Shown in pieces: positions 21,517-50,151 of a stretch of DNA of 64,000 bases. The notes beneath the pieces were generated by a model. The model did not search any database. It had not been told where the DNA came from and worked only from the letters and a program-made list of their open reading frames with translations. Numbering within the stretch: position 1 is the stretch's first letter; every line of letters starts with the position of its first letter. The translations under genes were made by a program, and so were the position numbers. This DNA is from Akkermansia muciniphila (GTDB lineage Bacteria; Verrucomicrobiota; Verrucomicrobiia; Verrucomicrobiales; Akkermansiaceae), in the NCBI GenBank assembly GCA_945874895.1, contig CAMCIC010000001.1, positions 248,001 through 312,000 of the forward strand. The letters run 5' to 3'.

Positions 21517-24345
21517 ATGAACGCCGCTGAGATCCGCCAGAGCTTCCTTGATTTCTTTCGCGAGAAACAACACACCATCGTGCCCTCCGCTTCCCTGCTC
21601 CCGCAGTCGCCCGGTCTGCTGTTTACCAACGCAGGAATGAACCCTTTCGTGCCGTATTTCCTAGGGGTGGAAAAGGCTCCCTACGATCCACCGCGCGCTG
21701 CCGACACGCAGAAATGCATCCGCGCTGGCGGGAAACACAATGACCTCGAGGATGTAGGCTATGATACCTACCACCACACATTTTTCGAAATGCTCGGCAA
21801 CTGGTCCTTTGGCAACTATTTCAAAAAAGAAGCCATCCAATGGGCTTGGGAACTCGTCGTCGAGCGCTGGGGACTTCCCGCCCACCGTTTGCACGCCTCG
21901 GTCTACGCGCCTAAGCAAGGTGACCCGGGGGAATTCGATCAGGAATCCTACAACATCTGGGCCGAACTCTTTCGCTCCAAAGGCTGCGATCCCGCCGTGC
22001 AGATCGTGAATGGCAACGTCAAGGACAACTTCTGGATGATGGGCGAGACCGGTCCCTGCGGCCCTTGTTCGGAACTCCACGTCAACCTCACTCCCGAAGG
22101 TGATCCGAAAACGGGTCGCGAATTGGTCAACAACGATTCCGACCTCTGCATCGAAATCTGGAATCTCGTCTTCATCCAATACAACGCCGAGGCAGATGGC
22201 AGTTTTCGCGAGCTGCCTGCGAAGCACATCGATACCGGCATGGGCTTCGAGCGCGCCTGCTCGATCATTCAAGGCACAAAAGGTTTCACCGATTTCTCGC
22301 AGAAGCCCAGCAACTACGCCACCGATGTCTTCACGCCTCTCTTTCGCAAGCTCGAAGAACTGAGCGGTAAAACATATGTCAACATCTACCCCGCCCTCGG
22401 CGCCGACCGATCGGCCTTCACCGAGGAGATGAAAACCGCGATCGCCTTCCGCGTCATCGCCGATCACCTGCGCACGCTCAGCTTCTCCATCGCCGATGGC
22501 ATCATGCCCGGAAACAACGGTCGCAATTATGTTTTGAGACGTATTTTACGACGGGCCGTTCGTTACGGTCGCCAGCTCGGTTTCTCTGGCGAGAAACCCT
22601 TTTTCGGCGCACTCGTAGAGACTCTCGTCAAAGAAATGGGCGAGGTGTTTCCAGAATTGAAAAACCGCCAGGAAGTGGTGCGCCAAACGCTGGAGCAGGA
22701 AGAATCGAGCTTCAATCAAACGCTAGACCGTGGACTGAAGCGCTTCGAAGATGCTCTCGCTCATCTCACGAACCAACAATTTCCAGGAGAGATTGCCTTC
22801 GATCTCTACGACACTTACGGCTTCCCCATCGACCTGACCGAACTGCTTTGCTCGGAACGAGGTCTGACCACAGACATGCTGCGTTTCGAACAACTCATGC
22901 ACGAGCAGCAGGAGCGTTCGCGTGCCGCGCAGAAATCGACTGTTGTTCGCGCGCTCGACATCTCCAGCGATGCCGTCACCGAGTTTCTCGGCTTTGAGCA
23001 AGACGCCTGCGAGGCAACCATTCTCGAAATCCACCCACAGGAGGACTCGATTTTTGTCATTACCGACAAGACTGTTTTTTACGCCGAAATGGGTGGTCAA
23101 TCCGGCGATACTGGCACCCTTGACGGCATCACTGTCTCTGGCGTTCAACAGATCGGCAAAGCCCGTGCACTGATCCTTCAGCAATCCGCGATCAGCGATC
23201 CGCGATCCTCCATCGAACCCGGTGCCAAAGTCACCCTCCAGCTCGAGACCGCCCGGCGCCGCCCCATCGAGGCCCACCATAGCGCCACGCACCTTCTGCA
23301 CTGGGCCTTGCACGAGGTAGTATCGAAAGATGCGGCGCAACAAGGCTCATCCGTCGATGAAAACCGCCTGCGTTTCGACTTCAACAGCTCCGCCGTGACA
23401 CCCGAGCAACTGACCGCTATTGAGGAGAAGGTCAATGCCGCAATCCAGGCTGACGACTCCGTTTCGTGGACCGAAGTGAAGCACTCGGACATCAAGAGCC
23501 GCGCCGACATCATGCAATTCTTCGGCGACAAATACGGTGACATCGTGCGTGTGGTACAGATCGGTGGCGAATCCAACCAATTGAACGGCTACTCGCAGGA
23601 ACTTTGCGGCGGCACACACGTCCGCAACACCGGTGCGATCGGACTTTTCAAAATCAAATCCGAGGGCGCCATCGCCTCCGGCGTGCGGCGCATCGAAGCC
23701 GTATGCGGTGATGCCGCCTGGATCTACCTGAACGAAGTCGTTGAAAAATGGAACAATGACCTGAAAGTCGCCCAAGCCAAGCTGCAGGCCGCCAATGAAA
23801 AACTCGCGGCCATTGGCGAAGCCGCCGTGTTGGTCAACGATTTTCCCCACGCTTTGGACGCCATGCTGGCCGAGCGGGCGGACATCACGCAAATCAACGC
23901 CACCTTCGCCCATGCGCAACGAACTTTGGAGGAAACCCAGCAAGGGGGTGCAGAAGCGGACAAACGTCTCAAAAAAATCCAATCTGCACAGGCCGCACAA
24001 CTCGCCGATGAAGCTCTGGCGGAGCGCATCGCAGCAGCGCAGCCCATTGCCCTCAGTTTCGAGGCCGATGCCTCACTGCTCCAGGAACTGCTCAACGGTC
24101 TGAAAAAACGCCAATTTTCCGAGGCCGCCGCATTGCTGGTGGATGACGGCGAAAAACTCCACCTCGCCACCTACTGCGGGACGAATGCAAAAAGCTCCGG
24201 CAAGGCCGCTGGGTCAATGCTCCAGCAACTCACCGCGATCGGCTGTGGCAAGGGCGGAGGCAATGCCGATATGGCGCGCGGCGCGGTCGGAGATCGATCG
24301 AAGCGAGCGGAGATTGAAACTACGATGAACCTAGTAATTTCTTGA
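21517..24345 (+). CDS. alaS: alanine-tRNA ligase
   Basis: A 942-residue class II synthetase that charges tRNA-Ala. The start MNAAEIRQSFLDFF and FTNAGMNPFVPYF, GKHNDLEDVG and FFEMLGNWSFG mark the catalytic domain. The editing domain has the zinc ligands His588 and His592 (HSATH) and Cys697 and His701 (CGGTH), which hydrolyse mischarged Ser- or Gly-tRNA. The C-terminal DHHA1 part ends near GKGGGNADMARGA. Start at 21517 was chosen over an upstream in-frame ATG because it gives the normal N-terminus. Confidence 0.97.
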   Translation: MNAAEIRQSFLDFFREKQHTIVPSASLLPQSPGLLFTNAGMNPFVPYFLGVEKAPYDPPRAADTQKCIRAGGKHNDLEDVGYDTYHHTFFEMLGNWSFGNYFKKEAIQWAWELVVERWGLPAHRLHASVYAPKQGDPGEFDQESYNIWAELFRSKGCDPAVQIVNGNVKDNFWMMGETGPCGPCSELHVNLTPEGDPKTGRELVNNDSDLCIEIWNLVFIQYNAEADGSFRELPAKHIDTGMGFERACSIIQGTKGFTDFSQKPSNYATDVFTPLFRKLEELSGKTYVNIYPALGADRSAFTEEMKTAIAFRVIADHLRTLSFSIADGIMPGNNGRNYVLRRILRRAVRYGRQLGFSGEKPFFGALVETLVKEMGEVFPELKNRQEVVRQTLEQEESSFNQTLDRGLKRFEDALAHLTNQQFPGEIAFDLYDTYGFPIDLTELLCSERGLTTDMLRFEQLMHEQQERSRAAQKSTVVRALDISSDAVTEFLGFEQDACEATILEIHPQEDSIFVITDKTVFYAEMGGQSGDTGTLDGITVSGVQQIGKARALILQQSAISDPRSSIEPGAKVTLQLETARRRPIEAHHSATHLLHWALHEVVSKDAAQQGSSVDENRLRFDFNSSAVTPEQLTAIEEKVNAAIQADDSVSWTEVKHSDIKSRADIMQFFGDKYGDIVRVVQIGGESNQLNGYSQELCGGTHVRNTGAIGLFKIKSEGAIASGVRRIEAVCGDAAWIYLNEVVEKWNNDLKVAQAKLQAANEKLAAIGEAAVLVNDFPHALDAMLAERADITQINATFAHAQRTLEETQQGGAEADKRLKKIQSAQAAQLADEALAERIAAAQPIALSFEADASLLQELLNGLKKRQFSEAAALLVDDGEKLHLATYCGTNAKSSGKAAGSMLQQLTAIGCGKGGGNADMARGAVGDRSKRAEIETTMNLVIS

Positions 24346-44302: not shown

Positions 44303-47075
<2,773 letters not shown>

Positions 47076-47085
47076 TGGGTAGTAA

Positions 47086-47109
47086 GGTCACTAGTCACTG
47101 GTCACTGGT
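47086..47109 (+). repeat. left terminal inverted repeat of the four-helix-bundle element
   Basis: A 24-base repeat starting GGTCACTAGTCACTGG, reverse complement of 47498-47521 except at one position. It contains three GTCACT words in tandem and lies 10 bases after the gyrB stop. Confidence 0.9.
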
Positions 47110-47113
47110 ATTT

Positions 47114-47512
47114 ATGAACAATGACATCAACAAACTGGAAATCTATCGCAAGGCCATGCGCCTAGGCGAAGAAGTGTGGGGCGTGGTGGTGACATGGGAC
47201 TTTTTTGCCAAGGACACAGTGGGCAAGCAATTCGTCAGAGCCGTCGATTCCATCGCGGCGAACATCGCCGAAGGCTATGGGCGCCATCACTACAAGGAAA
47301 ACATTCATTTCTGCCAATACGCCCGGGGTTCCGCTGAGGAAACGCAAACCTGGATTGAAAAATCCGCCAATCGCGCTCTCATCGAAAAAACAACCGCCCG
47401 CCAACTCTATCGCGAACTCAACACTCTCAAAAAGCGTCTGAACGCCTACATCAAAACCATAGGCAAACCCGCCAACCCCAAACGCACAACAGCAAATACT
47501 AGTGACCAGTGA
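47114..47512 (+). CDS. four-helix-bundle protein (S23/IVS-protein family)
   Basis: A 132-residue protein of the four-helix-bundle family first known from intervening sequences of 23S rRNA genes (S23 family). Markers are LEIYRKAMRLGEEVWGVV, QFVRAVDSIAANIAEGYGR, and FCQYARGSAEETQTWIE. The function is unknown; the fold may bind nucleic acid. ATG 47114 is preferred, five bases inside the left repeat; the frame is open upstream into the gyrB end. The coding end (NTSDQ and the TGA) is made by the right inverted repeat. It is a lone gene set within a gyrase operon, not in rRNA. Confidence 0.9.
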   Translation: MNNDINKLEIYRKAMRLGEEVWGVVVTWDFFAKDTVGKQFVRAVDSIAANIAEGYGRHHYKENIHFCQYARGSAEETQTWIEKSANRALIEKTTARQLYRELNTLKKRLNAYIKTIGKPANPKRTTANTSDQ

Positions 47513-47521
47513 CTAGTGACC
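47498..47521 (-). repeat. right terminal inverted repeat of the four-helix-bundle element
   Basis: A 24-base repeat beginning ACTAGTGACCAGTGAC on the plus strand, pairing with 47086-47109. It encodes the end of the four-helix-bundle protein and ends 11 bases before the gyrA ATG. Confidence 0.9.
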
Positions 47522-47532
47522 ATTTTACTCAT

Positions 47533-50151
47533 ATGTCCGACCACATCAAACCAATCTCCGTCGCCGAGGAACTCTCGACCTCTTTCCTCGACTACTCGAT
47601 GTCCGTGATCATATCCCGTGCGCTCCCCGACGTGCGTGATGGTTTGAAGCCCTCGCAGCGACGCATTTTGTTCGCCATGCGCGAGCTGAATCTGGCACCG
47701 GGTAAGCAACACATCAAATGCGCAAAGATTTGCGGCGATACCTCGGGCAACTACCACCCGCACGGCGAGGCGGTGATTTATCCGACCCTGGTGAACATGG
47801 GTCAGCATTGGACGATGCGCGAAACGCTCATCGATGGTCAGGGCAACTTTGGTTCGGTGGAAGGTGACCCTCCTGCTGCGATGCGATACACGGAAGCACG
47901 TCTCACCCATCTCGGTATGGCGATGATGGAGGACCTGGAAAAAGAGACCGTCGATTTCGTGCCGAATTACGATGAGCGACTCACCGAGCCCACCGTTCTG
48001 CCCGCCGCATTTCCGAATCTATTAGTCAATGGCGGCACCGGCATCGCCGTGGGCATGGCCACGAACCTCGCGCCACACAACCTGCGTGAAATCGTCGATG
48101 CGATTTGCGCGCAGATCGACAAGCCGGACATCACCTTGCCAGAACTGATGCAATACGTCAAAGGTCCTGACTTCGCGGGCAAGTGCGAGATCCGCGGTCT
48201 CAAGGGCATCGAGGAATACATGCGCACGGGACGTGGCTCGGTGCGCTTGCGAGGTCGCATCGAGATCGACGAACAGGAAGGCGGCAAGAGCATTCTCACG
48301 ATCCGCGAAGTGCCGCACGGCGTCAACCGCGCGACATTGCAAGAACGGATCGCCGAACTGGTGAATGAAAAAATCCTCACCGGCATCTCCAGCATGCGCG
48401 ATCTTTCCGATGAGGAAACGCGCATTGAGATCGAGCTGAAGCGCGATGCCCGCCCGCAGGTCGTCGCCAACCAGATCTTCAAGCTCACCAGCATGGATAC
48501 TTCCTACAGCATCAACATGCTGGCCATCCATGAGAAGCGCCCGAAGATGCTCACGCTCAAGGACGCGATCGATTGCTACATCGAACACCGCCGCGAAGTC
48601 GTCGTGCGTCGCACGAAATATCTTCTGCGCAAGGCCGAGGACCGCGCCGAAAACCTCGAGGCCTATCTGCTCGCACTCGGTCACCTCGATGACTTCATCC
48701 ACATCATCCGCTCGTCGAAAAACCGCGATGAAGCCCGCGAGCGCCTCGCCTCCTACACCTTCCCTGTCAAGACCGCGGAAAGCCTTGGCATTCTCATCCG
48801 CTCGCAAGCATCGGTGCAGGGCGATACCTACGTTTTCTCCGAGCGTCAGGTCAATGCCATCCTCGAACTCCGCCTCTATCAACTCACCGGCATGGAGCGC
48901 GACAAGATCAAGGGCGAATACGACAGCGTTCTCGCCGAGATTATCGACTTCATGGACATCATCGCCCGCGAGATCCGCGTGCTCACCATCATCAAGGACG
49001 AGCTCCGCGCCATCGGCGAAAAATACGGCACACCCCGCCGCTGCCCCATCCTTCCCGATGAAGGCGAGATTGCTATCGAGGACCTCATCGCCAACGACTC
49101 GATGATTGTCACGCTCACCCATCGCGGCTACATCAAGCGCACTCCTGCCAGCGAGTTCCGCGTGCAGGCGCGCGGCGGCAAAGGCCTGCGCGGCATGGAA
49201 ACCCGCGCATCCGGCGATCAGGAGGATGACTTCATCGAGCATCTCTTCTCCACCCAAGCGCACGATTACCTGATGTTCTTCACCAACACCGGTCGCGTGT
49301 ATGTCGAGCGAGTCTATGACATCCCCGAAGGCTCACGCGCCGCGAAAGGCCGTGGCATCCGCAACGTGCTCAACCTCCAGCCCGAGGAGAAAATTGCCGC
49401 TCTGCTGCGCCTCGAGCGCGTCACCGATGAAAACAACAACGACATTACATTCCGCGACGAAGCTGGCTTTATCCTCTTCGCCACGAAAGTGGGCCTGGTG
49501 AAAAAAACCCCGCTCAACGATTACCGCAACTATCGCAAGGCCGGTCTCAACGCCATCAATCTCGAAGAAGGCGATGAACTCATCGGTGTGCGCCAGACCA
49601 GTGGCAACGACGAAGTCATCCTGGTCACCCGTCACGGCATCAGCATCCGTTTCCACGAGGAACAAGCCCGCAGCATGGGTCGCACGGCGACAGGCGTTTG
49701 GGGCATTCGACCCGAAGAAGGCGACCACGTGGTCAGTCTCGCGCTTGTCACGCCCGGTAGCACCTTGCTTGTGGCCGCCGAAAACGGTCTCGGCAAACGC
49801 ACGGCTTTTGAGGAATATCGTCTGCAATCTCGCGGAGGCAAGGGCATCATCACGATGAAGATCACCGAAAAAACCGGCAACGTCGTTGGTGCGGTGACCG
49901 TGGAAGAGCAAGACGAGCTCATGCTCATGACCAACACTGGTCTGAGCATCCGCATCAAAGTCAACACCATCCGCGAAACCGGAAGAAACGCCCAAGGCGT
50001 GAAATTGCTGACGATGAAAGAAGGCGAAACCCTCCAAGACATCGCCAAAGTCATCCCCGATGGCGAAGACAACAACAGCGACGCCGCCGAACAAGCACCG
50101 TCTGACGAAGAGCTTTCTAACGAAGAAATCAACACCAACGAGGAAGAATAA
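47533..50151 (+). CDS. gyrA: DNA gyrase subunit A
   Basis: A 872-residue cleavage/wrapping subunit. The active-site Tyr119 is in AAMRYTEAR, the quinolone region is HPHGEAVIYPT (from about residue 75), and the GyrA box QARGGKG is at 545-551, confirming gyrase rather than topoisomerase IV. The C-terminal beta-pinwheel follows with repeats such as GRTATGVWGIRP and SRGGKGIITMKI, and an acidic tail. ATG 47533 gives MSDHIKPISVAEEL; the first longer frame start is inside the upstream element. Ala80 and Pro84 occupy the positions of E. coli Ser83 and Asp87. Confidence 0.97.
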   Translation: MSDHIKPISVAEELSTSFLDYSMSVIISRALPDVRDGLKPSQRRILFAMRELNLAPGKQHIKCAKICGDTSGNYHPHGEAVIYPTLVNMGQHWTMRETLIDGQGNFGSVEGDPPAAMRYTEARLTHLGMAMMEDLEKETVDFVPNYDERLTEPTVLPAAFPNLLVNGGTGIAVGMATNLAPHNLREIVDAICAQIDKPDITLPELMQYVKGPDFAGKCEIRGLKGIEEYMRTGRGSVRLRGRIEIDEQEGGKSILTIREVPHGVNRATLQERIAELVNEKILTGISSMRDLSDEETRIEIELKRDARPQVVANQIFKLTSMDTSYSINMLAIHEKRPKMLTLKDAIDCYIEHRREVVVRRTKYLLRKAEDRAENLEAYLLALGHLDDFIHIIRSSKNRDEARERLASYTFPVKTAESLGILIRSQASVQGDTYVFSERQVNAILELRLYQLTGMERDKIKGEYDSVLAEIIDFMDIIAREIRVLTIIKDELRAIGEKYGTPRRCPILPDEGEIAIEDLIANDSMIVTLTHRGYIKRTPASEFRVQARGGKGLRGMETRASGDQEDDFIEHLFSTQAHDYLMFFTNTGRVYVERVYDIPEGSRAAKGRGIRNVLNLQPEEKIAALLRLERVTDENNNDITFRDEAGFILFATKVGLVKKTPLNDYRNYRKAGLNAINLEEGDELIGVRQTSGNDEVILVTRHGISIRFHEEQARSMGRTATGVWGIRPEEGDHVVSLALVTPGSTLLVAAENGLGKRTAFEEYRLQSRGGKGIITMKITEKTGNVVGAVTVEEQDELMLMTNTGLSIRIKVNTIRETGRNAQGVKLLTMKEGETLQDIAKVIPDGEDNNSDAAEQAPSDEELSNEEINTNEEE

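Follow-up and report, generated by a model that had tools for sequence, protein, structure and literature searches.

A small S23 gene framed by inverted heptamer arrays in the gyrase operon of Akkermansia muciniphila, a probable member of a widespread class of mobile elements

The gene for a four-helix-bundle (S23) protein that lies between gyrB and gyrA most probably belongs to a widespread class of small mobile elements, each made up of a single S23 gene and inverted arrays whose repeat unit is specific to the element. We give this explanation, in which the insertion at gyrB-gyrA is old and has been retained vertically, with its protein still under selection, a joint probability of roughly 0.7. 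The window analyzed here is the whole stretch of 64,000 nucleotides that contains the locus. A sequence-only reading of it had placed an S23 gene bounded by inverted repeats inside the gyrase operon at 47086-47521; these coordinates are right, and its interpretation as a whole is partly supported. The locus comprises the following features.

44529..47075, + strand: gyrB, intact, the upstream host gene
47075..47532, no strand: full extent of the imperfect inverted repeat in its lengthened form, from the gyrB stop to the base preceding the gyrA start
47086..47109, + strand: left (upstream) inverted arm, consisting of GGTCACT, AGTCACT, GGTCACT and GGT, within a lag-7 array at 47085-47111
47114..47512, + strand: S23 gene, encoding a four-helix-bundle protein of 132 aa (PF05635, TIGR02436)
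47498..47521, + strand: right (downstream) inverted arm, overlapping the last codons and the stop of the S23 gene
47533..50151, + strand: gyrA, intact, the downstream host gene

The S23 ORF matches PF05635 with 98.7 bits (curated cut-off 33.8) and TIGR02436 with 103.2 bits (cut-off 24), and the nearest solved structure to its product is 2GSC. It is the sole ORF between the arms, which leaves the element without the cis transposase of an insertion sequence. The left repeat, GGTCACTAGTCACTGGTCACTGGT, and the right repeat, ACTAGTGACCAGTGACTAGTGACC, are complementary at 23 of 24 positions, as the sequence-only reading had it, and a repeat search lengthens the pair to 39 nt (47075-47113 and 47494-47532) at 87% complementarity. 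The S23 ORF is enclosed by terminal inverted repeats, a feature of insertion sequences, MITEs and 23S rRNA intervening sequences (IVSs) alike. Two further claims of that reading were confirmed: the right arm codes for the C-terminal residues of the S23 protein (..NTSDQ) and its TGA stop, and removal of 47086-47521 places the gyrase genes 10 + 11 = 21 nt apart. Absent from it was the substructure of the repeats. Each is itself a tandem array of the heptamer RGTCACT, the right arm being the inverse of the left, and in having tandem 7-nt units in intergenic DNA the locus resembles STRR-type repeats.

Four PF05635 genes are present in this genome (G000, 2.92 Mb), and heptamer arrays lie near all of them, with a different unit at each: RGTCACT at gyrB-gyrA (L002), TAAGACR at L001, TTTTGAA at L003 (weak and mainly one-sided) and a weak AGTGAAG-like unit at L004. 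The three genes outside the gyr site thus show one clear array pair and two weak ones. An unbiased scan of 832 kb of the genome for lag-7 arrays at 15/18 or better returned only seven, five of which are S23 arms, and the heptamer array at the gyr site is therefore far beyond what chance would produce. Of the other two, one is in alaS and one between gltB and gltD. The first (GCAATCCGCGATCAGCGATCCGCGATCC, window 23181-23214) runs in frame within the gene and is possibly a captured solo array; the second (L189:8093-8117) is a solo array of AGACAGA type with no S23 gene. A genome-wide family of GTCACT-type repeats, for which the sequence-only reading had proposed a search, did not emerge. Doubled GTCACT is confined to the gyr locus and one match with a single mismatch elsewhere, because each S23 gene bears its own heptamer. 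Several same-ended copies per genome, as expected of MITEs, are lacking in G000 and are found on Nostoc plasmids.

The arrays might instead be ordinary intergenic heptamer repeats, products of STRR-like slippage that happen to gather around S23 genes. Heptamer arrays independent of S23 are indeed widespread, with cyanobacteria and Xanthomonas as known cases (PMC4692102). Slippage, however, does not produce inverted arms of the same unit on both sides of a gene, and neither the predominance of S23 arms among the arrays of G000 nor the filled and empty sites described below, which differ by arms and gene jointly, is in keeping with it. We consider this origin improbable.

Comparison of the gyrB-gyrA junction in relatives favors a mobile element and bears out the earlier proposal that repeats and gene are one unit inserted between intact gyrase genes. 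Within the genus the full element is present in G000, G006 and G008, the last two with arms of the same type; in G001 a contig end cuts the junction and the S23 gene lies next to gyrA. The spacing check that the sequence-only reading had suggested revealed three congeners (G009, G004 and G002) with gyrB-gyrA gaps of 58-108 nt and no element, and in a fourth, G005, only a right array, CTAGTGACCAGTGACTAGTGACC, stands at this position. G015 and G021, which belong to other genera, carry a gyr-site element, both of whose arms are built from units of GTCARYG type. Insertion into the operon thus stands, but not as a recent event, since other genera share the insertion at this site and the gene is under purifying selection (in comparisons with gyr-site orthologues, dN/dS is 0.08-0.20 wherever dS is unsaturated). 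The gyrB-gyrA junction is also an insertion hotspot in G003, G046, G048, G041, G045 and G008 (L083, L094, L103, L105, L106 and L078), where the inserts include VapBC-like pairs, nucleotidyltransferase-like pairs and a truncated ORF, some of them beside solo heptamer arrays.

In many phyla, S23 genes usually stand between inverted heptamer arrays. Among 131 pooled loci from many phyla, which are best-scoring family matches and not a random sample, inverted arms (score of at least 18) occur at 86, a lag-7 array at 80 and one or the other at 109; control stretches taken 820-1000 nt away from the S23 loci yielded inverted arms in 1/124 and lag-7 arrays in 5/124. Lags of 7 (80 loci) and 14 (60 loci) dominate over all 131, followed by 8 and 15 (11 each). 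The same two lags are prominent at 73 loci from 57 relatives, with none in control stretches. Inverted alignment of matched flank pairs in the first locus set gave a median of 21.5, as opposed to 10 for swapped pairs, and direct orientation was rare. The pattern persists through the rest of the phylum and is present in 24 of 30 genomes of other phyla (including Nitrospirota, Bacteroidota, Chloroflexota, Acidobacteriota, Cyanobacteriota and Gammaproteobacteria) versus 1 of 26 controls. All nine cyanobacterial plasmid loci have a best inverted alignment of at least 18, although at L350, on a cyanobacterial plasmid, the arrays adjoining the S23 gene run in the same direction despite such a score. 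The unit differs in nearly every case, and some elements have units of 8 or 11 nt in place of the heptamer. Upstream arms are purine-rich on the S23 sense strand in 72 of 87 cases, with a median of four units. About one third of the 131 loci fall below the inverted-arm threshold, which counts against the mobile-element reading.

Arms and genes can be followed together between sites. In a protein tree the gyr-site S23 clade (support 100/99) includes a gene beside cysS in G020 (L071) and another after dnaK in G018 (L072), both of which have kept GTCA-type arms. The S23 genes at metK-ahcY have at least two origins (starred branches of the tree), and their arms follow the lineage, with AAGAC in one and TTTTCAG in the other. 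Pairs at different sites with at least 60% protein identity have an arm similarity of 0.59, compared with 0.61 for same-site pairs, and between different sites high arm similarity is found only at this level of identity. We infer that the arms move along with their gene, and that they evolve fast and in concert. The dN/dS of S23 orthologues is 0.08-0.23, calculated only where synonymous sites are unsaturated, and this purifying selection indicates that the protein is used.

An alternative would place the function of the arms in RNA. They would pair in the gyrBA mRNA, RNase III would cut, and the S23 cistron would be removed or degraded, leaving the element silent in the operon as 23S rRNA IVSs are. 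In keeping with this, the arms close one long stem in the predicted fold of the element RNA (z = -5.4), and S23 genes mostly lie in the sense direction within operons, 86 of 126 being in the same direction as both neighbors and 7 opposed to both. A stem by itself, however, needs no 7-nt periodicity, and some elements are antisense to their operon, for example between nrdB and nrdA in Nostoc. Selection for RNA pairing should leave an excess of GU-compatible mismatches, but compatible and incompatible transitions in the arms are equal in number (65:69 in one set and 149:145 at the pooled loci), a balance that favors maintenance of arm identity in the DNA itself over selection on an RNA stem. Although we think it unlikely that the arms are explained in this way, IVS behavior is compatible with a DNA-level element and the two could coexist. 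The sense bias suggests either a role for expression from the host operon or the loss of antisense copies. Raw DNA insertion with no selection on expression leaves this bias unexplained, a further point against the mobile-element reading.

Filled and empty sites on Nostoc plasmids speak for mobility. At one junction of a four-gene block, pNsp_c carries an S23 element whose arms are GGGAAAA; at the neighboring junction, pNsp_a and pC052_D carry a different S23 element, with AGTCAGR arms. Elsewhere on Nostoc plasmids, empty junctions have flanks that match the filled ones. On pNPM1 (L366:1053-1706) an element without S23, but with heptamer arms of the same type, has split an S23 gene, and two further Nostoc junctions hold S23-less inserts bounded by arms. 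A possible 3-bp target-site duplication (ATG) is seen at one junction, and about 1 bp or none at the others. S23 insertions also occur between cas genes in Anabaena and Pseudanabaena plasmids. At L349 and L350, both type I-D CRISPR loci, the S23 element separates cas6 from cas4. IVP genes have been reported in cas loci (PMC3936711); they fit insertion between cas genes and may themselves be insertions. The comparisons taken together show that gene and arms form one unit, which can be there or missing while the flanks are identical. A single S23 lineage, together with its type of arm, occupies different sites, different lineages occupy the same site, and arms of this kind also bound elements that lack S23.

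These observations also bear on the proposal that S23 is a conserved host regulator, for which the heptamer arrays would be operators tuning neighboring genes and mobility would be incidental or ancient. Strong purifying selection on S23, its maintenance across genera at gyrB-gyrA and metK-ahcY, the sense bias and the persistence of solo arrays near genes are all consistent with a regulatory module. Yet congeners are patchy for the element at the same operons, its neighbors at other sites are unrelated, and different lineages have occupied one site independently. Arm-bounded insertions that lack S23, one of which breaks an S23 gene, are equally hard to reconcile with such a role, and we judge it somewhat less probable than RNA-level excision.

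Arrays exist apart from S23 as well, which also weighs against the mobile-element reading. Around GTCACT arrays at 80 loci elsewhere, no S23 gene was found within 400 nt (0/80), and such arrays were therefore rejected as pointers to an adjacent S23 gene. S23 genes are present in 35 of the 38 genomes that hold these arrays, a figure that stands without a matched-genome base rate. In genomes picked for S23-distant GTCACT arrays, that heptamer was found on S23 arms at 8/30, versus 1/102 unselected loci, in a comparison that sets genomes of different phyla side by side and in which the single case is the locus of this window; these counts support a possible link in trans between S23 and the arrays. 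In Acidobacteria (L244, L264, L270, L279 and others) there are gene-less, MITE-like pairs of inverted AGTGAC/GTCACT arrays about 30-100 nt apart.

In the mobile-element explanation the arrays, usually of heptamers and sometimes of 8- or 11-nt units, would serve as terminal inverted repeats, and insertion would take place mostly between operon genes, leaving both neighbors intact. The S23 protein, as a pentamer of four-helix bundles, may bind several heptamers and so mark or synapse the ends; a pentamer is the form of the Xanthomonas S23 structure as summarized in PMC4990558. S23 has no recognizable catalytic domain, so an enzyme of the host, or one acting in trans, would have to carry out strand transfer or copying. 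Since both arms change together in sequence, a DNA-level process, conversion or copying, probably homogenizes them. Against the mobile-element reading, the S23 elements examined showed no cis transposase, no clear target-site duplication and no observed movement. As a partner, a Y1 transposase was uninformative, being present in 51 of 57 relatives with no link to S23 arms. One tblastn query revealed no S23 gene in phages, and none of 20 loci scanned with Rfam lay in an rRNA gene.

S23 proteins and rRNA IVSs have gone for decades without an accepted function or origin, and the heptamer repeats of cyanobacteria have had no known source so far. Inverted heptamer arrays around S23 genes join these two puzzles and point to a widespread, little-recognized class of mobile elements, in which case an S23 gene in a cas, gyr, met or nrd operon may have been inserted there and not belong to the pathway. 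More tentatively, with the odds somewhat against it, S23 elements could be a separate class that recognizes its ends by heptamer arrays and not by one fixed terminus, rewrites both arms together, and is the source of many STRR-type repeats and of rRNA IVSs. No paper in our search reports a general link between heptamer arrays and PF05635 genes; since the search did not reach most preprints or subscription journals, priority is uncertain.

Several known systems share features with the S23 elements. Avd, an accessory protein of DGRs, belongs to a four-helix-bundle family reported to be homologous to PF05635 (PMC10053308), but a reverse transcriptase, sought as a candidate partner, is lacking in G000 (no PF00078 match). 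MITEs and REP/RAYT systems likewise have short units, inverted ends, and gene-bearing and gene-less forms with common ends. In contrast to these, the ends of S23 elements are tandem arrays that vary between elements, and the protein has no HUH or DDE domain. Bacterial heptamer repeats include GGGGAYT in Nostoc, GGGAATC in Xanthomonas and TAACTGA in Beggiatoaceae (PMC4692102, PMC4679880). These and STRRs are also tandem, intergenic and sometimes in inverted pairs, whereas here inverted arrays flank S23 at most loci, cyanobacterial plasmids included. The searched text of the two papers makes no mention of S23, and one of them reports no general link to mobile elements. The sequence-only reading had pointed to the S23 genes of 23S rRNA IVSs, and the comparison is apt: in Coxiella and Leptospira these share the protein family, a unit of about 0.4 kb and terminal inverted repeats. 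The Coxiella study, which calls the origin of IVSs unclear, records tandem GACAGAT heptamers before the S23 ORF (PMC4990558), resembling S23 arms found here such as AGACAGA (L024). Unlike these IVSs, the gyr element is found in an operon, between two protein-coding genes, and not in a 23S rRNA gene, the heptamer differs from element to element, and the ORF, which decays in Coxiella, is under purifying selection. The rRNA IVSs would represent one insertion class of the S23 mobile element.
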